Virus record (IMG/VR): IMGVR_UViG_3300009180_000101
Span: 1-37,557 of that record
Reading direction: 5' to 3' (one strand)
DNA: 37,557 nucleotides
DNA from: a virus
Positions 2,442-27,623 of this stretch are shown here, piece after piece. How positions within the stretch are numbered: the first letter of the stretch is position 1; each line of letters opens with the position of its first letter. Made by a program: the position numbers and the translations under genes. The notes beneath the pieces were generated by a model, which saw only the letters and a program-made list of their open reading frames with translations, did no database searches and was not told the origin of the DNA.

Positions 2442-2585
2442 ATGCCTCTCAAAAAAAGCCCCAGCAAAGAAGCCTTCCGTCAAAACGTCCGCGCCGAAGT
2501 CAAAAGCGGCAAGCCCGTCAAGCAAGCGGTTGCCATTGCGTACAGCGTCAAGCGTGAAGCCTCGAAAGGCAAAAGCAAAAAATGA
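2442..2585 (+). CDS. Small basic conserved phage protein, 47 aa
   Basis: The protein begins MPLKKSPSKEAFRQNVRAEV and continues through KPVKQAVAIAYSVKREA to a lysine-rich end. A strong ribosome binding site (AAGGAG, 2431-2436) precedes the ATG. The stop overlaps the ATG of the GroES-like gene (ATGA). Short proteins with this KQAVAIAYSVKR signature are common next to phage terminase and portal genes, with unknown function. A longer open frame starting at 2377 overlaps it in another phase. I prefer this one because of the ribosome binding site and the recognisable sequence. Confidence 0.85.
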   Translation: MPLKKSPSKEAFRQNVRAEVKSGKPVKQAVAIAYSVKREASKGKSKK

Positions 2586-2860
2586 GTCTAAAACCTCTAA
2601 GTAATTGTGTTTTAATTCGTCAAGACACAGAAAAATTATCTGAGTTAATAGTTTTACCCCAAAATAAATTATTTAGCGGTATCATAGTGGCAATTGGTGA
2701 AGGCAAGAAAAATCCGAAAGGACATATTGAGCCTATGAACGTCAAAGAAGGCGACCATGTGCTATTCGGTGAATTTTCCGGGCAAAAGGTCACAGTCGAT
2801 GGCGAGGAACTGCTTATGATGCGTGAGCCTGATGTGATCGGAATACTAAATGGCGTATGA
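2582..2860 (+). CDS. GroES-like co-chaperonin (Cpn10)
   Basis: The 92-residue protein looks like bacterial GroES over its full length. It has the N-terminal PLSNCVLIR strand, a mobile loop keeping the GroEL-binding tripeptide IVL at residues 23-25, and the core strand GIIVAIGEG. A roof segment is followed by NVKEGDHVLFGEFSG and the C-terminal VDGEELLMMREPDVIGIL. It should cap the host GroEL chamber and help fold phage proteins such as the coat protein. That role is known for phage co-chaperonins like T4 gp31 and is inferred here. No GroEL gene is present. It overlaps both neighbours, placing it inside the head operon. The spacing between terminase and portal is unusual for a chaperonin gene. 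Confidence 0.93.
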   Translation: MSLKPLSNCVLIRQDTEKLSELIVLPQNKLFSGIIVAIGEGKKNPKGHIEPMNVKEGDHVLFGEFSGQKVTVDGEELLMMREPDVIGILNGV

Positions 2861-5099
2861 CCAAACTTCAATGAATATCGTCGGCAAAGTAGCCGACGTA
2901 GGCAGTAACCCTACTACTACTCCAAATGAGCAGTCTGATACGCTTGCAACAATGCGCCATCGCTTTCAAATGGCGATGTCGGCGTACTCTGAATCAAGAG
3001 AAGATGAACTAGATGATCTTCGTTTTATGGCTGGTTCGCCAGACAATCAATGGCAATGGCCTGCTGACGTATTGGCAACGCGTGGCTCTGTTCAAGGACA
3101 GACTATTAACGCAAGACCTTGCCTAACAATTAATAAATTACCGCAACACGTCAAACAAGTTACTAATGAGCAACGTCAGAATCGACCCTCTGGAAAAGTA
3201 ATTCCTGCGGACGATAAAGGCGATATTGAAGTAGCAGAAATATTTGAGGGTATGGTTCGCCATATCGAGTATATGTCTGACGCCGATGTAGTCTATGACA
3301 CTGCTTGCGAAAATCAAGTAACGTATGGCGAAGGTTATTTTCGCATTTTGACTGAGTTTTGCTACGATGATTCTTTTGATCAAGACATTCGTTTAGGTCG
3401 TATTCGTAACGCGTTTAGCGTTTACATGGATCCAATGATCCAAGACCCTGCTGGTTGCGACGCTGAATGGTGTTTTATTAGCCAAGATATTGAAAAAGAC
3501 GAATATGAGCGTCAATATCCTGATGCGGCGCCCATTACATCCATTATGTCCCAAGGTGTAGGCGATGATTCCTTAAGCCAATGGTTAAACGAAAACACAA
3601 TCCGTATTGTTGAGTATTTTTACTATACACATACCCCAACTAAGCTTAATTTGTACCCAGGCAACCAATCGTTTTACGATGGCAGCCCTGAAGATAAGCA
3701 AATGAAACAAATGGGCTTAAAACCCATCAAATCTCGCACTGTAGATGTAAAAAAAGTCATGTGGATGAAGTCCAATGGCTATGAAGTGTTGCAAGAACAA
3801 GAATGGGCAGGCAAATGGATACCTGTGATTCGTGTAATTGGCAATGAATTTGAAGTAGATGGCCGTATTTATGTGTCCGGCTTGGTAAGAAATGCCAAAG
3901 ATGCACAGCGTATGTACAACTACTGGGTATCCCAAGAAGCTGAAATGCTTGCCTTGGCTCCAAAAGCACCGTTTATAGGTTATGGCGGTCAATTTGAAGG
4001 ATATGAACAACAATGGAAAACTGCAAACACGACCAATTGGCCGTATTTGGAAGTTAATCCTGACGTTACTGATGGATTAGGTGCAACTTTGCCGCTTCCA
4101 CAACGCGCTCCACCTCCTTTGGCACAAACTGGACTTATCCAAGCCAAAATGGGCGCGTCTGATGATATCAAGTCCACAACTGGACAGTATGACTCGAGCT
4201 TAGGTGCCACAAGCAACGAACGCTCGGGGAAAGCTATTCTTGCCCGCGAACGCCAAGGTGATGTAGGTACATTCCATTACGGCGACAACCTGACTAAAGC
4301 AATTCGCTTTGCAACCCGTCAGTTAATCGACTTGATTCCCAAAATTTACGATACCGAGCGTATTGCTCGTATAGTAGGCGTAGATGGTGAAGTATCAATG
4401 GTTAAATTAAACCCTGAGCAACCTGAACCAGTTAAGAAAATTGTTGACCAACAAGGTATTGTGATTGAAAAAGTCTACAACCCTAGCGTTGGTGTGTACG
4501 ATGTGGTAGCTACTACAGGCCCAGGCTACATGACTAAACGTCAAGAAGCTATGGAAGCAATGGCTCAGATTTTGCAAGGCAATCCTCAGCTATGGGCTGT
4601 TGCAGGCGATTTATTTGTTAAGAATATGGATTGGCCTGGCGCGCAAGAGATGGCTAAACGCTTAGAAAAAACCATTGATCCAAAACTTATGTCCAATACA
4701 GACGAAGATCCTGCTTTGCAAGCTGCTCAACAGCAGATTCAAGCAATGGGTCAAGAAATGGAAGGTATGCACCAAATGTTGCAAAACGTGGGTAAATCCA
4801 TTGAAATGCAAGAGTTGGAACGTAAAGACTTTGAAGCGCAAATCAAGCTATTTGATGCTGAAACTAAGCGTTTATCAGCTATTCAAGCATCTATGTCACC
4901 CGAACAAATCCAAGATATTGTTATGGGAACCGTGCATGGAATGATGGTTAACGGCGATCTTGTAACTGAAATGCAACGTGATACCGCAATGGATATGCAA
5001 GAAGAAGATCAAAAAGAGATGCAAATGGAACAACCTATGCAACCGCAAGGTCAACCAATGCCGCCTGAACAAATGCCACCACAAGGGACGCCACAATGA
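2850..5099 (+). CDS. Portal protein, P22 type
   Basis: This 749-residue protein forms the dodecameric ring at the head vertex through which DNA enters and leaves. Length (P22 portal is about 725) and sequence fit the P22 portal family, notably the conserved stretch around TTGQYDSSLGATSNERSGKA and the following ARERQGD. The C-terminal 130 residues are rich in Gln, Met and Glu with coiled-coil character, then a Pro-Gln-Met tail. This resembles the long helical barrel of P22 portal. The ATG overlaps the GroES stop by 11 bases, and the stop overlaps the next start (ATGA). Confidence 0.94.
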   Translation: MAYDQTSMNIVGKVADVGSNPTTTPNEQSDTLATMRHRFQMAMSAYSESREDELDDLRFMAGSPDNQWQWPADVLATRGSVQGQTINARPCLTINKLPQHVKQVTNEQRQNRPSGKVIPADDKGDIEVAEIFEGMVRHIEYMSDADVVYDTACENQVTYGEGYFRILTEFCYDDSFDQDIRLGRIRNAFSVYMDPMIQDPAGCDAEWCFISQDIEKDEYERQYPDAAPITSIMSQGVGDDSLSQWLNENTIRIVEYFYYTHTPTKLNLYPGNQSFYDGSPEDKQMKQMGLKPIKSRTVDVKKVMWMKSNGYEVLQEQEWAGKWIPVIRVIGNEFEVDGRIYVSGLVRNAKDAQRMYNYWVSQEAEMLALAPKAPFIGYGGQFEGYEQQWKTANTTNWPYLEVNPDVTDGLGATLPLPQRAPPPLAQTGLIQAKMGASDDIKSTTGQYDSSLGATSNERSGKAILARERQGDVGTFHYGDNLTKAIRFATRQLIDLIPKIYDTERIARIVGVDGEVSMVKLNPEQPEPVKKIVDQQGIVIEKVYNPSVGVYDVVATTGPGYMTKRQEAMEAMAQILQGNPQLWAVAGDLFVKNMDWPGAQEMAKRLEKTIDPKLMSNTDEDPALQAAQQQIQAMGQEMEGMHQMLQNVGKSIEMQELERKDFEAQIKLFDAETKRLSAIQASMSPEQIQDIVMGTVHGMMVNGDLVTEMQRDTAMDMQEEDQKEMQMEQPMQPQGQPMPPEQMPPQGTPQ

Positions 5100-5458
5100 A
5101 ATGTTCTGATTTTGTAGGAATTTTGTTCCTAGCCCGTGATGTAACCCATTCGGTTCATTTAAATACCCGTAGCTACGCAAAACATAAAGCTTTGCAAAAA
5201 TTTTACGAGAGTATTATTGATTTGGCAGACTCCTTTGCCGAGGCATACCAGGGACGGCATGGTTTGATTGGCCCAATTAGCTTAATGTCAGCTAAAAAGA
5301 CTAGTAATGTCATTGAGTTCTTAGAATCACAGCTTGCAGAGATTGAATCTGTGCGATACGATGTTGTCGATAAAAGTGATAGTTCAATGCAACAATTGAT
5401 TGATAATATCATTGAGTTATATCTTTCAACCCTTTATAAACTTCGCTTTTTGGCGTAA
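5096..5458 (+). CDS. Small Dps/ferritin-like helical protein (DUF5856-like)
   Basis: The 120-residue protein is predicted to be almost all helix. Short phage proteins of this kind are, to my memory, grouped as DUF5856. The spacing of H18, H30, D45 and E49 equals that of the Dps ferroxidase ligands (E. coli Dps H51, H63, D78, E82). The fifth ligand, D67, is Gln34 here. The stretch THSVHLNTRSYAKH also resembles the Dps region around AHWN. A last helix near residues 92-118 would complete a four-helix bundle. It overlaps the portal stop, so it is expressed with head genes. A Dps fold and metal binding are inferences. The protein is shorter than Dps, and a purely structural role is possible. Confidence 0.6.
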   Translation: MKCSDFVGILFLARDVTHSVHLNTRSYAKHKALQKFYESIIDLADSFAEAYQGRHGLIGPISLMSAKKTSNVIEFLESQLAEIESVRYDVVDKSDSSMQQLIDNIIELYLSTLYKLRFLA

Positions 5459-5467
5459 GGAACTGAC

Positions 5468-5734
5468 ATGGCACTATATAAACAATTATCTGCTACTAAC
5501 CAAGTAAAAATTGGTGGCGGCAAACTATACGGTATTTCTGTATCTTCTACTTCTAGTGGTACTCTTGTCATTTATGACAGCGCTACTGCAAGTACAAACG
5601 ATCCAAAAATTGCTAATACAATTACTGTAACCGCAGGCACACAATACCTTAGCTTCCCCGCTGGAATTTGGTTTAGCAAAGGTTTATATATTGTTGCTGC
5701 AAATACTATAGAATTTACTGTAGTTTACGAGTAA
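5468..5734 (+). CDS. Hypothetical small beta-rich protein, 88 aa
   Basis: An AAGGA ribosome binding site precedes the ATG. The protein is rich in Thr, Ser, Val and Ile in alternating patterns that suggest beta strands (GTLVIYDSATAS, TITVTAGTQYLSFPAG). It contains no Cys. Proteins of this kind are common among phage head genes. A minor virion or decoration role is a guess from position between portal and scaffold. Confidence 0.7.
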   Translation: MALYKQLSATNQVKIGGGKLYGISVSSTSSGTLVIYDSATASTNDPKIANTITVTAGTQYLSFPAGIWFSKGLYIVAANTIEFTVVYE

Positions 5735-5791: not shown

Positions 5792-6580
5792 ATGGACGAA
5801 AGTCAAGAAGTAGTACCAGCGGAAGTATCCGCGCCAGAGCAGGTGGCAACGGCTGCACCTGAACCTGAAGTAACAGCGCCGGAAGCAGCAGAGCCAGCAG
5901 CAGAAGCACCCAAGACCTTCTCACAAGAAGAACTTGATGCCGCTATTGGTAAAAGACTTGCTAGAGAGCAACGTAAGTGGGAAAGAGAACAGGCAGCTAG
6001 AGCGACAGAAGCACAAGCTCGAAAAGCCCCAGTAGAAATCCCGCCGATTGAGCAGTTTAATTCGCCTGATGAATATGCTGAAGTTTTGGCAGAACGTAAG
6101 GCAGAAGAATTGCTTGCTAGGCGTGAACAAGCTAGGATGCAGTCTGAGATCATTGAGTCCTACCACGACAAAGAAGAAGATGCGCGGAATAAGTATGATG
6201 ACTTTGAACAAGTCGCATATAACCCCAAGCTTCCAATCACTGACGCGATGGCTCAAACGATTCAAGCTTCAGAAGTTGGCCCCGATATGGCTTATTACCT
6301 AGGGTCTAATCCAAAAGAAGCCGAACGTATTTCTCGTTTATCACCACTCCAGCAGGCCAAAGAATTAGGGAAAATTGAGGCTAAATTAGCTGATAACCCA
6401 GTAGTAAAAAAGACTTCGAGCGCCCCAGCACCAATTGCTCCGATTACGGCGAGATCCACTGGATCTCCAGCAACAGACACAACGGATCCTCGTGCCATTA
6501 AAAGCATGACGACTTCAGAGTGGATTGAAGCTGATCGCCAACGTCAGATCAAGAAGTGGGAAGCGCAGAGAAACCGCTAA
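5792..6580 (+). CDS. Capsid scaffolding protein
   Basis: The 262-residue protein is highly charged and helical. It has an acidic Glu-Ala-Pro-rich N-terminus (about 1-40), then long coiled-coil segments rich in Glu, Arg, Lys and Gln (about 45-130), and a basic end, EWIEADRQRQIKKWEAQRNR. Position immediately before the coat gene, size and composition match scaffolding proteins of P22-like and other tailed phages. In that family the basic C-terminal helix binds the coat. An AAGGAAA ribosome binding site precedes the ATG. No protease motif is visible. Confidence 0.85.
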   Translation: MDESQEVVPAEVSAPEQVATAAPEPEVTAPEAAEPAAEAPKTFSQEELDAAIGKRLAREQRKWEREQAARATEAQARKAPVEIPPIEQFNSPDEYAEVLAERKAEELLARREQARMQSEIIESYHDKEEDARNKYDDFEQVAYNPKLPITDAMAQTIQASEVGPDMAYYLGSNPKEAERISRLSPLQQAKELGKIEAKLADNPVVKKTSSAPAPIAPITARSTGSPATDTTDPRAIKSMTTSEWIEADRQRQIKKWEAQRNR

Positions 6581-6604: not shown

Positions 6605-7807
6605 ATGTCAAATTCGATCTTAACCATCGACATGATTACAAGAAAAGCTCTCGAAATCCTCGAGAACAACCTTGTACTCACACGTAACGTAAACCGCCAG
6701 TATGACGATTCTTTCGCTGTTGAAGGCGCAAAAATTGGTTCTACTCTCCGTATCCGCTTACCAGACCGCGCTTTGGTAACTGACGGTGCCGCCTTGCAAG
6801 TTCAAGACGACAACGAACAGTACACAACTTTGACTGTAGCGTCACAAAAGCATATTGGTGTTAACTTCACCTCTGCTGAATTGACAATGCAGTTAGATGA
6901 CTTTGCAGAGCGTGTTTTGAAACCACGTATCTCTCAGTTGGCTTCTTCTATTGATGCTGACGTAGCTAATAGCTACAAAGCAGTTTATAGCTCAGTTGGT
7001 ACACCTGGCACAACTCCTTCTACTTCATTGGTGCTGTTACAAGCTCAACAGAAGTTGAACGAAAATGCTGCTGTTATGTCCCCACGTTACGCTACTGTTA
7101 ACCCAGCAGCTAACGCAGGTTTGGTTGAAGGTATGAAAGGTCTGTTTAATCCTACAGACACAATCAGCCGTCAATTCAAGAATGGCATGATGGGTATGGG
7201 TGTATTGGGCTTTGAAGAAATCAACATGAGCCAATCTATCAAGCAACATACAACTGGTTCTTGGGGTACAACTATCACTGTAACTACAACTGTTGCTACT
7301 GAAGGTCAAGCTACTTTAGGTATTAGCTTTACTGGCTCTAGCAAGACTTGGAACGTAGGTGATGTATTCACAATCGCTAACGTATACGCTGTTAACCCAC
7401 AAACCCGTGAGTCTACTGGTAGCTTGCAACAGTTCACTGTAACTGCTGCTGCGTCTGGTTCATCCACAGCTACTTTGTCTATTAGCCCAGCTATCTACAC
7501 CTCTGCTAACGCTCTTGCAACTGTGGATTCATTCCCAGTAGCTACTGCTGCGGTAACGATGTTAGGTTCTTCTGCTACTCAGTACGCTCAAAACTTGGTT
7601 TACCACAAAGATGCGATTACTTTTGCAACCGCTGACTTGTTGTTGCCACAAGGTGTTGACATGGCTTCACGTCAAGTTCACAACGGTATCTCTATGCGTG
7701 TTGTACGTCAGTACGACATCAATAATGACCGTTTACCTTGCCGTATTGACGTTCTGTATGGCTTTAGCACGATTCGTCCAGCAATGGCTTGCCGTATCTG
7801 GGGTTAA
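6605..7807 (+). CDS. Major capsid protein, P22 coat family
   Basis: The 400-residue protein forms the icosahedral shell. The N-terminal region (EILENNLVLTRNVNRQYDD, then KIGSTLRIRLPDRALVTDG) and the segment HIGVNFTSAELTMQLDDFAE match the pattern of P22-like coat proteins with the HK97 fold. A Thr/Ser-rich insertion at about residues 215-310 looks like the surface I-domain of P22 coat. A strong hairpin terminator follows at 7815. The protein is probably the most abundant product of the genome, and a GroES partner is encoded nearby. Confidence 0.93.
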   Translation: MSNSILTIDMITRKALEILENNLVLTRNVNRQYDDSFAVEGAKIGSTLRIRLPDRALVTDGAALQVQDDNEQYTTLTVASQKHIGVNFTSAELTMQLDDFAERVLKPRISQLASSIDADVANSYKAVYSSVGTPGTTPSTSLVLLQAQQKLNENAAVMSPRYATVNPAANAGLVEGMKGLFNPTDTISRQFKNGMMGMGVLGFEEINMSQSIKQHTTGSWGTTITVTTTVATEGQATLGISFTGSSKTWNVGDVFTIANVYAVNPQTRESTGSLQQFTVTAAASGSSTATLSISPAIYTSANALATVDSFPVATAAVTMLGSSATQYAQNLVYHKDAITFATADLLLPQGVDMASRQVHNGISMRVVRQYDINNDRLPCRIDVLYGFSTIRPAMACRIWG

Positions 7808-9615: not shown

Positions 9616-10347
9616 ATGTCAAATGTAACCATATCTCAACTACCAGTAGCTACATCGGCAACCGGAGGGGATTTATTTCCTATTCAACAAGGTGCTACTA
9701 CTAAACAATTAAGCAACGCCAATTTGTTTACTAATTCCGCTTTAATTACGCCCTTATTAGGCACGCCCCAATCAGGCTTATTAACTAATTGCACAGGTTT
9801 GCCTTTAACTACTGGCATTATAGGAACTCTACCTGTAGCCAATGGCGGCACAGGTATTACTAGCTTAGGCGCAGGCATTGCTACTTTTTTAGGCACACCG
9901 TCCTCTGCTAATTTAGCCGCCGCCGTAACAAATGAAACAGGTACAGGTTCTTTAGTATTTGCTACAAGTCCTACACTTGTTACCCCTGTTTTAGGTACAC
10001 CCGCAAGCGGCGATTTAAGCAATTGCACAGGTAGCCCTACACTAACTAATTTAAAATATTCAGGTTTATTAGCTACTACGGCTGCTGCACCTACAGTTGC
10101 TTCTGCAACTACTATTGCGCCAACTAAGGCAATTACTTTTATTTCAGGTACAACTGCCATTGTAACAATTACTGCGCCTAGCCCTATTTCTACAGGTGGC
10201 GGGTCTATTACGCTTATTCCTACAGGTATTTTTACTTGGACAGCAGCAGGTAATATTGCTCTTGCAGGCACCGCAGTAGTTAGCAAAGCCTTGACGCTTG
10301 TGTATGATGTAACCACTGCCAAGTGGTATCCATCCTACACTGCATAA
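9616..10347 (+). CDS. Repeat-rich tail fibre-like protein, 243 aa
   Basis: The N-terminus (NVTISQLPVATSATGGDLFP) is a pattern seen at the start of phage fibre and virion-associated proteins. Two copies of a T-P-L/V-LGTP-SG-L-NCTG module follow at about residues 49-68 and 123-142, with one ANGGTGITSL motif between. The C-terminus is Thr/Ala/Ile-rich and beta-like. Similar GGTG motifs appear five times in the large fibre at 11927. The function is probably structural in the tail; host binding is possible. The gene splits the gp4-like and gp10-like pair. Confidence 0.7.
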   Translation: MSNVTISQLPVATSATGGDLFPIQQGATTKQLSNANLFTNSALITPLLGTPQSGLLTNCTGLPLTTGIIGTLPVANGGTGITSLGAGIATFLGTPSSANLAAAVTNETGTGSLVFATSPTLVTPVLGTPASGDLSNCTGSPTLTNLKYSGLLATTAAAPTVASATTIAPTKAITFISGTTAIVTITAPSPISTGGGSITLIPTGIFTWTAAGNIALAGTAVVSKALTLVYDVTTAKWYPSYTA

Positions 10348-10356
10348 GGACGCAAT

Positions 10357-11934
10357 ATGCTCACCCCTATCTTAGGACAAGCTTATACGGCTCGGTCGGT
10401 TAACGCTGCGGACAACCGCATGATTAACTTATTTCCAGAAGCAATTCCCGAAGGTGGTCAAACAGGTGGTTTTCTTAACCGCGCCCCAGGGCTTCGTTTT
10501 TTAACTGCTGTTGGTACTGGCCCCATCCGCGGGCTTTGGACACACACAACGGCTGGTTTAGACGCTTATGTTGTGTCTGGCGATAGTTTTTATAAAGTCG
10601 ATACTAATTTTAATGCTACTTTACTAGGCACTGTTAGCGGTACTGGCCCAGTATCTATTGCTGATAGCGGTACTCAGATATTTTTAGCGTGTAACCCAGA
10701 TGCTTACGTTTATACCGAATCTACTAATACCTTTGTAAAAGTAACCGACCCTGATTTTGCAGGCGCAGCTACGGTTTGTTACATTGATGGTTACTTTGCT
10801 TTTAATCAGCCTAATAGCCAAATTATTTGGGTGACAGATATTCTTAACGGCACGGTTATTAATCCTTTAGCGTTTGGCGCCGCCGAAAGTTCTCCAGACA
10901 AAGTAGTAGCCGTAGTTAACAACAACCGTGAAGTCTGGGTGTTTGGTTCTGGCACTACTGAAGTTTGGTATGACGCAGCTACTACTCCTTTTCCATTAGC
11001 CCCTATTCAAGGCGCATACAACGAAATTGGTTGCGTTGCACCATTTTCAATTGCTAAGTTAGATAATAGTTTGTTTTGGCTTGGCGCTGATCCGCGTGGC
11101 TACGGTATTGTTTATCGTAATCAAGGCTATACAGGTAAACGTATATCTACCCACGCCGTAGAATACGCTATTCAACAATACGGTGATATTACAGACGCCG
11201 TAGCGTATACATATCAAGAAGAAGGCCATGCTTTTTACGTTTTAAATTTCCCAACAGCTAATAAAACTTGGGTTTATGATGTATCTACAAATGCTTGGCA
11301 TGAACGGGCTAGTTGGTTTAACGGCTCATTTGCGCGTCATCGTGGTCAATGTCAAATGAATTTTGATAGCCAAACTATTGTTGGCGACTATGAAAATGGC
11401 AATTTATATGCTCTTGATTTAAACGTATACGCTGATAATGGCGATACGCAAAAATGGGTACGTTCATGGCGTCCGTTGCCACCTAATCAAAATAATCTTA
11501 AACGTACGGCTCAGCATACCCTTCAATTAGATTGTCAGTCTGGCGTAGGAATTAACACTAGTATTGTTGGTGATTCAACTGTAGCTTATTTTGTTGCAAC
11601 GCAAGTTAATGTTTCTTACCCAGACAATGTTATTACTAATAGCGGTGATTATTTAGTCTTTTCAATGACTAATATTCCTAGCGGTGGTACTGAAACGGGG
11701 CAAGGCAACGATCCTCAAGTCATGCTTCGTTGGTCTGACGATGGAGGTCATACTTGGTCAAGTGAACATTGGATTTCAATGGGTAAAATTGGTGAATATG
11801 GTTATCGTGCTATTTGGCGCCGCCTTGGAATGACTACAAAGCTCCGTGACCGCATTTATGAAATTTCTGGTACTGACCCTAACAAAATCACTATTGTGGG
11901 CGCAGAGCTATTTTTAAGCGGTACAAATGCTTGA
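10357..11934 (+). CDS. Tail hub, P22 gp10-like DNA stabilisation protein
   Basis: The 525-residue protein resembles the P22 gp10 family, which forms the tail hub under the portal-gp4 stack and holds in the packaged DNA. Characteristic stretches are SVNAADNRMINLFPEAIPEG and RAPGLRFLTAVGTGPIRGLW near the N-terminus, and the middle REVWVFGSGTTEVWYDA. LFWLGADPRGYGIVYR comes later. The length is close to P22 gp10 (472). Its stop overlaps the next start by eight bases. Confidence 0.9.
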   Translation: MLTPILGQAYTARSVNAADNRMINLFPEAIPEGGQTGGFLNRAPGLRFLTAVGTGPIRGLWTHTTAGLDAYVVSGDSFYKVDTNFNATLLGTVSGTGPVSIADSGTQIFLACNPDAYVYTESTNTFVKVTDPDFAGAATVCYIDGYFAFNQPNSQIIWVTDILNGTVINPLAFGAAESSPDKVVAVVNNNREVWVFGSGTTEVWYDAATTPFPLAPIQGAYNEIGCVAPFSIAKLDNSLFWLGADPRGYGIVYRNQGYTGKRISTHAVEYAIQQYGDITDAVAYTYQEEGHAFYVLNFPTANKTWVYDVSTNAWHERASWFNGSFARHRGQCQMNFDSQTIVGDYENGNLYALDLNVYADNGDTQKWVRSWRPLPPNQNNLKRTAQHTLQLDCQSGVGINTSIVGDSTVAYFVATQVNVSYPDNVITNSGDYLVFSMTNIPSGGTETGQGNDPQVMLRWSDDGGHTWSSEHWISMGKIGEYGYRAIWRRLGMTTKLRDRIYEISGTDPNKITIVGAELFLSGTNA

Positions 11935-14641
11935 TATAACCCTTCTTCCATCGGCTAAAGTACCGTTAATTTATTCCGATACTAACGGAATGACAACTGA
12001 ATGGTATCGTTTTTTTTGGAATGTCTATGGGTTTACAGGAGATGCCACAGGCGCCGTACCAGTTAACAAAGGTGGTACAGGGTTAACAAGCATTGGTAAC
12101 CACCAACTTATTATTGGTAATAGCGCGGGTGTTTTTGAGCGCACAGAATTAATTGGTAGCGGCATTACAATTACCTATGCGCCTGGCACAACTACATTAG
12201 CTATTGGCAACTCAGGTGTTACACCAGGTACTTATGGCTCGGCCTCGGCTGTCGGTCAGTTTACCGTAGATGCTAAAGGTACTTTAGTTTTTGCTCAAAA
12301 CATAACAATTGCTATTAACGCTAATCAAATTACTAGCGGAACAATTGCCTCTGCTCGTATTTCTGGATCTTATACAGGTATTACAGGTGTTGGTACGTTA
12401 ACTGCGGGCATTTGGAACGCAAACACTATTGATACAAACTACGGCGGTACCGGATTAACAAGTTTTACTTCAGGTGGCGCTTTATACGCTACTTCTACTT
12501 CTGTTCTTACAAGTGGCACCCTGCCTGTAACTGCTGGCGGTACAGGTCAATCTAGTTTTACTAATGGTCAATTGTTGATTGGTAACACTACAGGCAATAC
12601 CCTTACTAAAGCTACTTTGACTGCTGGTACAGGTATCAGTATTACTAATGGTGCTGGCGCCATTACAATTACCAATTCTTCCCCATCACTAGGTGGAGAT
12701 GTAGTTGGCCCTGCTTCCGCTACTGATAACGCTATAGCTAGATTTGACACCACTACAGGCAAATTAATACAAAACTCTGTAGTCACAATTGGTGATACAG
12801 GTGCAGCTACAGGTTTTACTACACTTTCTGCTTCTACTAGCGTTACAACACCTATTGTCCAAGCGTCAAATTCTGCTGGTTTAGCGCTTAAAAACGCAGG
12901 TGGAACAACTCAAATGAGCGTAGGCGCTGGCGGCGGCGATAATATGTCCATCAATGTTTCTACCAATTTAAACGGTACAAACGCTCAGATTGACATTAGC
13001 CCTACTGGTACAGGCCATGTCCATATAAAGCCTAGCGGTACAGGTGCAGTAGAAATAGCACCTACAAACGCTGGAACAATGAACAACATGGTTATTGGCG
13101 GCGCAACGCCTTTAGCTATTACAGGCACAACCATTACAGCTACAACTTTTAATGGATCTGGTTCAGGTCTTACTTCTATTCCTAACTCAGCGTTAACCAA
13201 CAGCACTATCTCGGGCGTAGCCCTCGGCGGTAACTTGTTTAGCCTTACGGCTGGTACAGGCGTATCGTTTAGCGCTGGTACAACCTATAACGGTTCTACA
13301 GCTATTACTATTAACGCTACAGGTACGGGCGGTACGGTCACTAGCGTTACAGGTACGGCGCCGGTAAGTGTAGCCACAGGCACAACTACCCCCGTAATTA
13401 GCATGGCCGCAGCAAATACCACTACAAACGGCTATTTGACTTCTACCGATTGGAATACCTTTAATAATAAAGGTAGTGGATCAGTTACTAGCGTAGCCCA
13501 ATCATTTACGGGTGGTTTAATTTCTGTAGCTGGGTCACCAATTACTACTTCAGGTACTTTAGCTTTAACCGTAGCGGGGACTTCTGGCGGTATTCCTTAT
13601 TTTTCAAGTGCAACAACCTGGGCATCTTCAGCCGCTTTAACTCAATATGGCGTTATTTATGGCGGCGGTGCGGGCGCGGCGCCTGTTTCAACTGCTGCGG
13701 GTACAACAGGTCAAGTTCTTATTGCAACAACTAGCGGCGCCCCTACATGGGGTTCAATCCCAACTACCGCCGCTGTAACTTCATTAAATTTTGGTACTAC
13801 TGGCTTTACTCCATCAACAGCAACAACAGGCGCAATTACCGTTGCTGGCACATTAGTTGCAGCCAATGGCGGTACAGGGCAATCTAGTTATGCTGTAGGC
13901 GATATTCTTTACGCTTCTACTACTACAGCTTTAAGCAAATTAGCTGACGTAGCTACAGGTAATGCCCTTATTTCTGGAGGCGTTGGTGTTGCCCCTAGTT
14001 ATGGAAAAATTGGCCTTACAACGCATATTTCAGGTACTTTAGCAGTTGGAAATGGTGGCACAGGGCTAACTACTTTAACCGCTGGCTATATTCCTTACGG
14101 CAATGGCACAAGCGCATTTAGCTCTAGCTCTACGTTAACATATAGCGGGACTAGCTTAACTGCGGGGAATTTTTCTCCATCAAGTTCAACAGGGCCTATT
14201 AATGGAATGTTTTTACCAGCAGCAAATAATTTAGGCTTTAATAATAATAGTGGAGAAGCAGCAAGATTTGATGCTAATAGCAATTTTTTAATTGGTACAA
14301 CTTCTGCAACTGGCTCGTCAACAAATTTGCGCGCAATTGTTGGAGGCTTATTAAAAACATCGAGTGGTTCAACTTCAACAGCAAATAATACTTTTACAAC
14401 TATTTTTACTGCCCCGTCACTTAATAATGGCACTTATATAGTAAGCTGTAACTTACCCGCGGCGGATCCAACAAACTTTAGTGCAGTATCATTAGTAACC
14501 GTAGATGCCACAGTTTTGAGAGCAACAGCTTTACAAACAGCGGGGCTTTTAGCAATTCAAATAAGCGGGCAAGATATTCAAGCAAAACAACAAACAGGCA
14601 CTACAGCTAATATTCTTTGGACTGTAACGCGTGTTTCTTAA
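11927..14641 (+). CDS. Large repeat-rich tail fibre, 904 aa
   Basis: The N-terminus LLPSAKVPLIYSDTNGMTTE followed by WYRFFWNVYGFTG is typical of podovirus fibre anchors. The long body is poor in charged residues and rich in Thr, Gly, Ser and Ala, with five GGTG(L/Q)(T/S)(S/T) motifs (KGGTGLTS, YGGTGLTS, AGGTGQSS, NGGTGQSS, NGGTGLTT). A GGDVVGPASATDNAIARFD segment known from many phage fibres lies near residues 257-275. The C-terminal 100 residues differ in composition and may be the tip. It probably contacts the host surface. The gene overlaps the gp10-like gene by eight bases. DNA repeats within it could promote recombination. Confidence 0.85.
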   Translation: MLDITLLPSAKVPLIYSDTNGMTTEWYRFFWNVYGFTGDATGAVPVNKGGTGLTSIGNHQLIIGNSAGVFERTELIGSGITITYAPGTTTLAIGNSGVTPGTYGSASAVGQFTVDAKGTLVFAQNITIAINANQITSGTIASARISGSYTGITGVGTLTAGIWNANTIDTNYGGTGLTSFTSGGALYATSTSVLTSGTLPVTAGGTGQSSFTNGQLLIGNTTGNTLTKATLTAGTGISITNGAGAITITNSSPSLGGDVVGPASATDNAIARFDTTTGKLIQNSVVTIGDTGAATGFTTLSASTSVTTPIVQASNSAGLALKNAGGTTQMSVGAGGGDNMSINVSTNLNGTNAQIDISPTGTGHVHIKPSGTGAVEIAPTNAGTMNNMVIGGATPLAITGTTITATTFNGSGSGLTSIPNSALTNSTISGVALGGNLFSLTAGTGVSFSAGTTYNGSTAITINATGTGGTVTSVTGTAPVSVATGTTTPVISMAAANTTTNGYLTSTDWNTFNNKGSGSVTSVAQSFTGGLISVAGSPITTSGTLALTVAGTSGGIPYFSSATTWASSAALTQYGVIYGGGAGAAPVSTAAGTTGQVLIATTSGAPTWGSIPTTAAVTSLNFGTTGFTPSTATTGAITVAGTLVAANGGTGQSSYAVGDILYASTTTALSKLADVATGNALISGGVGVAPSYGKIGLTTHISGTLAVGNGGTGLTTLTAGYIPYGNGTSAFSSSSTLTYSGTSLTAGNFSPSSSTGPINGMFLPAANNLGFNNNSGEAARFDANSNFLIGTTSATGSSTNLRAIVGGLLKTSSGSTSTANNTFTTIFTAPSLNNGTYIVSCNLPAADPTNFSAVSLVTVDATVLRATALQTAGLLAIQISGQDIQAKQQTGTTANILWTVTRVS

Positions 14642-24153: not shown

Positions 24154-24501
24154 ATGAAATTAACACCCTATATCCTAGAATCCCTATACTTGTGTATGGC
24201 ATCTTGTCACCCCATGCGGAACTGGGACTTGCCTGCGCCAGAGCTTATCCAGTTCAAGGTAACTAGGGAATCAGATGCCATGGCTACCTACCGCTACCAA
24301 GAAGATTTAGAGAAGCCTCATATCATTACCATTAGCCGTCTGCGTAATGAGCATTTTGATACCGTGCAACGCTCATTGGCTCACGAAATTTGTCACATGA
24401 GTTTTTGGAAAACAGATTACTGGGACAAGCATGGCAAAGCGTTTAAAATCCGTACGCGGCAGATTGCAAGAGAATTTGGGTGGGATAGCTTAGAGTTATG
24501 A
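24154..24501 (+). CDS. SprT-like zinc metallopeptidase, 115 aa
   Basis: The motif LAHEICHMSF puts HExxH at residues 77-81, and His93 (DKHGKAF) could be the third zinc ligand, as in SprT/Spartan-like proteins. The usual C-terminal zinc ribbon of cellular SprT is absent. In phages these small proteins are common and of unknown substrate. In cells the family removes DNA-protein crosslinks. It follows the phosphoesterase by 12 bases without a clear ribosome binding site and is the last rightward late gene. Confidence 0.78.
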   Translation: MKLTPYILESLYLCMASCHPMRNWDLPAPELIQFKVTRESDAMATYRYQEDLEKPHIITISRLRNEHFDTVQRSLAHEICHMSFWKTDYWDKHGKAFKIRTRQIAREFGWDSLEL

Positions 24502-26292: not shown

Positions 26293-27623
26293 TTCAATTC
26301 CTCAATTGCTATGTCTGAAATAGCCCTCTTATCCTTTAAGGCGTCCCAAATCCTTTGGTCAATCGTTTTATTAGTTAACAAAAGGTAAACCCATACATCG
26401 TGTTTTTGACCGCTACGATGCAAGCGTCCTACTGTTTGCTCATACAACTCAAGGCTCCAAGGCAACGATACAAAGACCATCTTGCTACCGCCATGCTGAA
26501 GATTGAGGCCATGCCCTGCTGATTTAGGGTGAATCAATAGCAACTCAATCTTGCCATCGTTCCAACGCTCAATCGCTTTAGGATCATTGATAGTCTGCGC
26601 GTTGGGGTACCGACGCTTTAATTCTGCTAATTCTTCAACGTAGTTGTAAACAATAATCGTGTTGGCGCGTTGATTCTCTTGTAGCAACTCATCTAATAAA
26701 TCAAACTTGTGGTGCGAAAACCACAAAGGTGTTTGCGTTACGTTCATGCGCCCTGGCGTATTAGACGGCGTAGTTTCAGTCTGATAAATAAAACCTGACG
26801 CCATTTGTTGTAGCTTTCCGGTCACAACGGCTGCGCTAACTGCCGTGATCTCTGTGTCTTTAAACTCAACAACATAATCTTTTTTCATCTTTTCGTATGG
26901 GGCGCGGTCTGTCAGATCGCAACTTAACTCGACAACATGGCATGGCGGCAACGTATCAGCGTATTCGCCAGCTTCTAAAACAAACGTAGCAGGCTTAATC
27001 TTTTCCATGACTTTTCCTAATGAGCCTACACGCGGCTCCCACTCGCCAAAGTCTTTATTAACTAGGACGAAATACTGTTGCATAAACGCGCCTTTGGCAC
27101 GTCCTAATAAATTCTGATCGACAATTTTGCACTGACCAAAGACATCCTCTAAACCATTGCTAGTAAAGCTACCTGTCAAACCCCAACGAACTTTAAATGG
27201 GTCTAGCACTTTAGATAGCGCTTTAAATCGTGCGCCTGATGGGTTCTTTAGCCGTGTTAACTCGTCAAATACAATGCCATCAAAATCTAAAAATTGCTCT
27301 GATAACCATTGCAAACTGTCGTAGTTAACTACTACTACTTTGGACTTACTACGCAGCGCTTTAAGACGTTGGTCAGGTGTGCCTACAGCAACGCTTAGGG
27401 TTAACCCTGTAGCCCACTTGGGTTGTTCTACAGGCCATACATCCGTACAGACGCGCTTAGGGGCAAGAACAAGCCAACGCTTGACTAACCCCTGCTTGAT
27501 GGCGTCTTGCATCGCTGTGAGCGTTATAGCCGTCTTGCCAGCGCCTACGGGCGCTAAGATCATGGCTCTGTCTTTCTCAAACAAAAAGTCAGCCGCCGTG
27601 TCTTGATAAGGGCGCAATTTCAT
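26289..27623 (-). CDS. SNF2/SF2-type DNA helicase
   Basis: The 444-residue protein has the SF2 motor motifs. APVGAGKTA (Walker A) is at residues 24-32, FDELT at 119-123 (DEAD-box position), GLTGSFTSNGLED is motif III, and KSAGHGLNLQHG and EQTVGRLHRSGQ are motifs V and VI. The last is typical of SNF2-like helicases. I chose the ATG at 27623, which overlaps the VRR-NUC stop; an in-frame ATG at 27638 would add five residues. It should unwind or translocate on DNA. Being paired with VRR-NUC, a common phage arrangement, suggests recombination or replication restart. Confidence 0.92.
   Translation of the reverse strand: MKLRPYQDTAADFLFEKDRAMILAPVGAGKTAITLTAMQDAIKQGLVKRWLVLAPKRVCTDVWPVEQPKWATGLTLSVAVGTPDQRLKALRSKSKVVVVNYDSLQWLSEQFLDFDGIVFDELTRLKNPSGARFKALSKVLDPFKVRWGLTGSFTSNGLEDVFGQCKIVDQNLLGRAKGAFMQQYFVLVNKDFGEWEPRVGSLGKVMEKIKPATFVLEAGEYADTLPPCHVVELSCDLTDRAPYEKMKKDYVVEFKDTEITAVSAAVVTGKLQQMASGFIYQTETTPSNTPGRMNVTQTPLWFSHHKFDLLDELLQENQRANTIIVYNYVEELAELKRRYPNAQTINDPKAIERWNDGKIELLLIHPKSAGHGLNLQHGGSKMVFVSLPWSLELYEQTVGRLHRSGQKHDVWVYLLLTNKTIDQRIWDALKDKRAISDIAIEELK

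Follow-up and report, generated by a model that had tools for sequence, protein, structure and literature searches.

The 37,557-base virus record IMGVR_UViG_3300009180_000101 (the whole stretch of DNA analysed, here the window) encodes on its plus strand, at 5096..5458, a 120-residue protein homologous to Dps, the bacterial protein that withdraws iron from circulation and protects DNA. The homology is secure in that family profiles and a predicted structure agree on it, though the single sequence does not show it. We propose that the gene encodes a mini-ferritin of phages that is produced late, joins the virion in part and has an iron site shared by two subunits, as in Dps, and give this reading a probability of about 0.6.

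The gene belongs to a widespread phage family

The 5096..5458 gene was assigned from its open reading frame, from Pfam and PHROG matches, and from an AlphaFold2 model as a Dps-like mini-ferritin. Its product matches the Pfam family DUF5856 (PF19174) at 5.3e-22, with 79.1 bits against a gathering cut-off of 34.6, and the same model is matched by all 50 sequences of our relatives alignment. It also matches PHROG 858 (5.7e-26), whose name, 'starvation-inducible transcriptional regulator', looks like a garbled Dps annotation. A tblastn search found the family in 1,387 of 50,697 phage records; T4-like phages, in which the gene is called rI.-1, and Ackermannviridae account for many of these. IMG/VR is also rich in relatives when scanned with four single relatives, the alignment of diverse relatives being too variable for a degenerate scan. 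Only two contigs, both from metagenome-assembled genomes (MAGs), were found in a scan of bacterial genomes, and these probably stem from phages and were binned together with bacteria. The first 25 kb of the window had no near-identity DNA match among phage records, and DUF5856 is not mentioned by name in the literature searched. The window gene is under purifying selection, with a median dN/dS (omega) of 0.08 in 29 comparisons with distinct close relatives, a value that is approximate because dS is high.

Three relatives have unusual copies. In phage RB43 (L252:3001-3385), in contrast to its relatives, the matched rI.-1 frame contains three stops and is thus broken. The 37,964-base record IMGVR_UViG_3300011115_000146 has two near-identical but non-identical copies (L069, L076) near its two ends, perhaps through assembly joining of two variants. 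The copy at 27055-27404 of OR844944.1 (Enterococcus phage Efm 3-10) is 97% identical to the one in a Salmonella Kuttervirus, and this record is possibly contaminated or mislabelled.

Family profiles and the predicted fold identify Dps as the nearest relative

A profile search against Dps and ferritin had been suggested in the initial annotation as a check on its mini-ferritin proposal, and with family profiles this search finds Dps. A profile of 14 relatives searched with HMMER against all PDB sequences places the Dps family on top (HP-NAP, 2.8e-5; a Dps family protein, 6.9e-5), and with a profile of 50 relatives HP-NAP is again first (4e-4). HHalign against 25 Dps sequences gives a probability of 95.1 in local and 95.8 in global mode over nearly the full length, and in the controls none of 100 column-shuffled profiles exceeds 3.1, with the reversed profile at 0.3. 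Searched singly against the PDB, the window protein gives nothing significant (HP-NAP, 0.32). The Pfam ferritin model PF00210 has no match in the window and NCBIfam none for the window protein; the NCBIfam Dps model gives 16.2 bits on the homologue in the T4-like phage Phi1, below its cut-off of 114.

AlphaFold2, run with 50 sequences, predicts a four-helix bundle for the window protein with a mean pLDDT of 93.9 (helices 3-23, 27-55, 72-90 and 96-118), in line with the description of a short, helical protein whose gene overlaps the portal gene; a fold lacking such a bundle had been named as grounds for abandoning the Dps proposal. The best solved Foldseek matches are Dps (probability 1.00, with an E value of only about 0.03). 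VIA-align gives Z 14.3 and an rmsd of 2.2 over 118 residues against MsDps2, and Z 12.9 against E. coli Dps with Dps residues 31-166 covered, although a Z of about 14 is near the level that helical bundles may reach through arrangement alone. The model of a T4-like relative (L247; pLDDT 93.2) has a long helix A (3-37), as Dps does, and its best structure matches are Dps or other ferritin-like chains.

A viral structure library gave matches to a crAss-like 'DpsA', and proteins predicted for giant viruses (Pithovirus LCPAC404, Fadolivirus) and for crAss-like phages resemble this fold. Gut phages named 'Gratiaviridae' carry Dps and ferritin-like genes (PMC8008677). Both these and the crAss-like 'DpsA' are phage-borne examples of the Dps fold, as the window protein would be, and are described as Dps proper. 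A Dps from YerA41 was rejected as a phage example as it belongs to the host.

Conserved residues occupy ferroxidase positions in a corrected register

The proposal of a Dps-like site began from the spacing of His18, His30, Gln34, Asp45 and Glu49, whose offsets from His18 (+12, +16, +27 and +31) do equal those of H51, H63, D67, D78 and E82 in E. coli Dps. When the window protein is shuffled 200,000 times, the spacing of the four residues other than Gln34 turns up in 57 cases; chance spacing is unlikely for one protein, and across the whole window it may occur. The alignments place three of these residues as proposed, with His30 (5183..5185) at H63, and Asp45 and Glu49 (5228..5242) at D78 and E82, positions that are D and E in 25 of 25 Dps sequences. 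The pairing of His18 with H51 proved wrong: both HMMER against solved Dps proteins and HHalign against the 25 Dps sequences put His21 on H51, with a three-residue deletion in the A-B loop. The His18-Ser-Val-His21 codons (5147..5158) lie at the end of helix A, with His18 one turn before His21, and the shortened loop together with the start of helix B (Leu22-Lys29) occupies 5159..5182.

Relatives with a longer loop agree with this register. The three extra residues are kept in 19 of 249 collected relatives (among them L235-L243 and L088), as in L235 'HWRVKGEGSFAKH', and the Phi1 homologue 'HFGVTGPGSYAKH' also retains them. In these long-loop relatives the H30 equivalent follows the second His at exactly +12, which is the spacing of Dps 'HWNMRGANFIAVH'. 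Thanatos-2 has Lys instead of His18 and retains H21, H30, D45 and E49. The His18 position is His in 10 of 25 Dps sequences and corresponds to His22 of HP-NAP, which also has a residue matching Tyr37 of the window protein. On these alignments, the match of His18 to the Dps spacing is coincidental.

Conservation of the residues, on which the original proposal had also been staked, is strict: H18, H21, H30, Y37, D45 and E49 are invariant in the 50 sequences, relatives that are 30-86% identical to the window protein. Tyr37 (5204..5206) has a counterpart in Dps that is often Tyr. The metal-type invariant residues are confined to helices A and B, and the sole other well-conserved one is D103 (47 of 50). 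The D67 position is D or E in 24 of 25 Dps sequences, whereas the window protein has Gln34 (5195..5197), which supplies no carboxylate ligand, and the relatives mostly have G (36 G, 10 Q and 2 E of 50). Our guess is that the invariant His18 replaces the D67 ligand. The idea of a mini-ferritin-like protein is thus favoured by the profile searches, the AlphaFold2 model and the strict conservation of the ligand residues, and weakened by the missing D67 carboxylate.

A putative iron site between two subunits

Helix B is unbroken from residue 27 to 55 in the AlphaFold2 model, and because of this continuity H30 and D45 lie about 22 Å apart in one chain, so that a single site with all of the invariant residues would need two chains, as in Dps. 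From this distance along one helix of the monomer model we infer a two-subunit site. The subunit would be a four-helix bundle of a shortened Dps type, with His21 and His30 (together with His18) at one end of helices A and B, and Asp45 and Glu49 further along helix B; the His/His and Asp/Glu groups would come together where two antiparallel subunits face each other at a two-fold axis. Such a site would bind iron and probably use peroxide or oxygen to oxidise Fe2+, although both the identity of the metal and the chemistry are presumptive. The probable purpose is the clearance of iron and peroxide late in infection, which would lessen iron-driven damage to phage DNA. The initial annotation had also raised the guarding of DNA, and for guarding through DNA binding we find no support, as the protein is acidic (pI 6.0) and has no basic tail like that of E. 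coli Dps; binding through such a tail was rejected, with the helix beginning at residue 3.

Comparison with known proteins places the window protein closest to HP-NAP and the Bacillus-type Dps, with which it shares the predicted four-helix bundle and, by alignment, H21, H30, D45 and E49 at the ferroxidase positions. Dps proteins are about 145-167 residues long as against 120 here, and the window protein lacks the D67 carboxylate and a basic tail and has a shorter loop and helix A. With a helix A about nine residues shorter than that of E. coli Dps, the protein may fail to assemble into a cage. In bacterioferritin and ferritin the di-iron site is intrasubunit with ligands on four helices, unlike the arrangement of invariant residues on helices A and B only. 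Other DUF5856/PHROG 858 members (rI.-1 of the T4 group, Ackermannviridae) have the same core invariant residues, with Kuttervirus relatives being about 35% identical to the window protein. Two features of the Phi1-like members, a long N-terminal stretch of helix A and the three-residue loop, are missing from the window group, which also differs in its fixed place after the portal gene.

The gene has a fixed place in the head operon of the window group

The window gene order is terminase large subunit, GroES-like co-chaperonin (2582..2860; PHROG 3188, 5e-16), portal (2850..5099; PHROG 156, 8.8e-123), DUF5856, a small ORF (5468..5734) with no PHROG match that adjoins the gene in 22 relatives, head scaffolding protein (5792..6580; PHROG 8865, 6.3e-27) and major head protein (6605..7807; PHROG 283, 1.7e-78), those with coordinates all on the plus strand. 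The ATG of the DUF5856 gene shares 4 bp with the portal stop, as ATGA. The portal gene is directly upstream in 72 of the 74 window-group loci with a portal found, and conversely all 74 close portal relatives whose sequence extends far enough downstream have a DUF5856 gene there. Three more distant phages that share this head operon (Rhodoferax phage P26218, Vibrio phage D478 and ctfPj964) have no DUF5856 gene annotated and are absent among the best DUF5856 matches listed; in these the portal is followed by the scaffold or another ORF and then the coat. Other phage groups carry the gene near HNH, NinB and replication genes, endolysin, or terminase genes. The gene therefore turns up in varied modules elsewhere, whereas in the window group it has settled in the head operon, and there the protein would be made together with portal, scaffold and coat. 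Upstream of the T4-like DUF5856 genes, exact matches to a T4-type late promoter are at least 330 bases away and are given no weight here.

Several other features of these genomes were observed. The GroES-like gene is carried by other relatives of the window phage too. Two long ORFs in the window (9616-10347 and 11927-14641) contain repeated 'GGTG' motifs, like tail-fibre repeats, and a small ORF (24154-24501) has a HEICH zinc-protease-like motif and is perhaps SprT-like.

Homologues are found in virions

Two members of the family have been detected in phage particles. LIMEstone1 ORF078 (13.15 kDa) was listed as a 'confirmed structural protein' from three virion peptides (PMC3296691, Table 2), and Sajous1 gp217 gave 10 spectra in CsCl-purified virions and a Phyre2 ferritin score of 96.7 (PMC10892097); these detections are few in spectra or peptides and come from other phage families (Ackermannviridae), in which the gene is away from the portal. 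Both proteins match the DUF5856 family profile (ORF078, 2.1e-30, with a computed mass of 13,149 Da; gp217, 1e-29), so they belong to the same family as the window protein. The suggestion that the protein is made with the virion thus agrees with its position behind the portal and with mass spectrometry reported for two homologues, with the reservation that those homologues are from other phages. Some of the window protein would accordingly leave with the virion, if it behaves in the same way. A ferritin fold (for Sajous1) and presence in virions (for Sajous1 and LIMEstone1) had therefore been noted before in this family. The literature searched yielded neither a residue-level assignment to Dps nor a link to T4 rI.-1, which is no proof that none exists.

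Alternative roles

The main alternative is a virion or assembly protein, for example in the portal region or the head interior, that keeps the Dps fold and a stabilising metal site (iron or zinc) without meaningful ferroxidase activity. The constant place after the portal in close relatives, the homologues in virions and the loss of the D67 carboxylate all point this way. We nevertheless consider it unlikely, as sister phages with the same terminase-portal-scaffold-coat order manage without the gene, other phages carry it by endolysin, HNH, NinB or terminase genes, and the invariant residues coincide with the Dps metal ligands. A further view would make DUF5856 a separate phage-specific mini-ferritin branch with its own ligands (three His, one Asp and one Glu) and a reduced assembly, packaged in the virion to carry or neutralise iron, with T4 rI.-1 as a member and not primarily a lysis gene; as a whole this is doubtful.

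That rI.-1 adjoins rI in T4-like phages such as Phi1 would fit another reading, in which the protein regulates the timing of lysis, as suggested for T4 rI.-1. A passage of a review (PMC6832632) describes a slight delay of lysis-inhibition collapse when rI.-1 was over-expressed from a plasmid, but as described there the effect is small and confined to over-expression. RaK2 has a homologue, yet its authors found no rI, rI.1, rIII or T holin (PMC3622015), and the window group carries the gene by the portal instead, which together make a lysis role improbable. Still less probable is a 'Ferrojan horse', in which the protein bears iron on the particle and exploits host iron uptake for entry: this was put forward for Sajous1 from the same family, but tonB and feoB mutants were infected about equally by that phage (PMC10892097), and no evidence places the protein on the tail. 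Finally, an unrelated helical bundle with coincidental His/His/Asp/Glu spacing could be imagined from the 57 shuffles that reproduce the spacing and from the His18 register, which was coincidental indeed, but it is contradicted by the profile, shuffled-profile and structure results and by residues invariant across 50 sequences, and is hardly credible.

Implications

The mini-ferritin reading has consequences beyond the window phage. DUF5856 is widespread among phages, those of T4 type included (1,387 of the 50,697 records), yet it is catalogued either as a transcription regulator or as a domain whose function is unknown. If the protein oxidises iron, many phages would make their own defence against iron and peroxide, perhaps within the particle itself, and a biochemical function open to testing could be assigned to the little-known T4 gene rI.-1. 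One small protein would then allow direct tests of how much iron phages contain and of the 'Ferrojan horse' idea.
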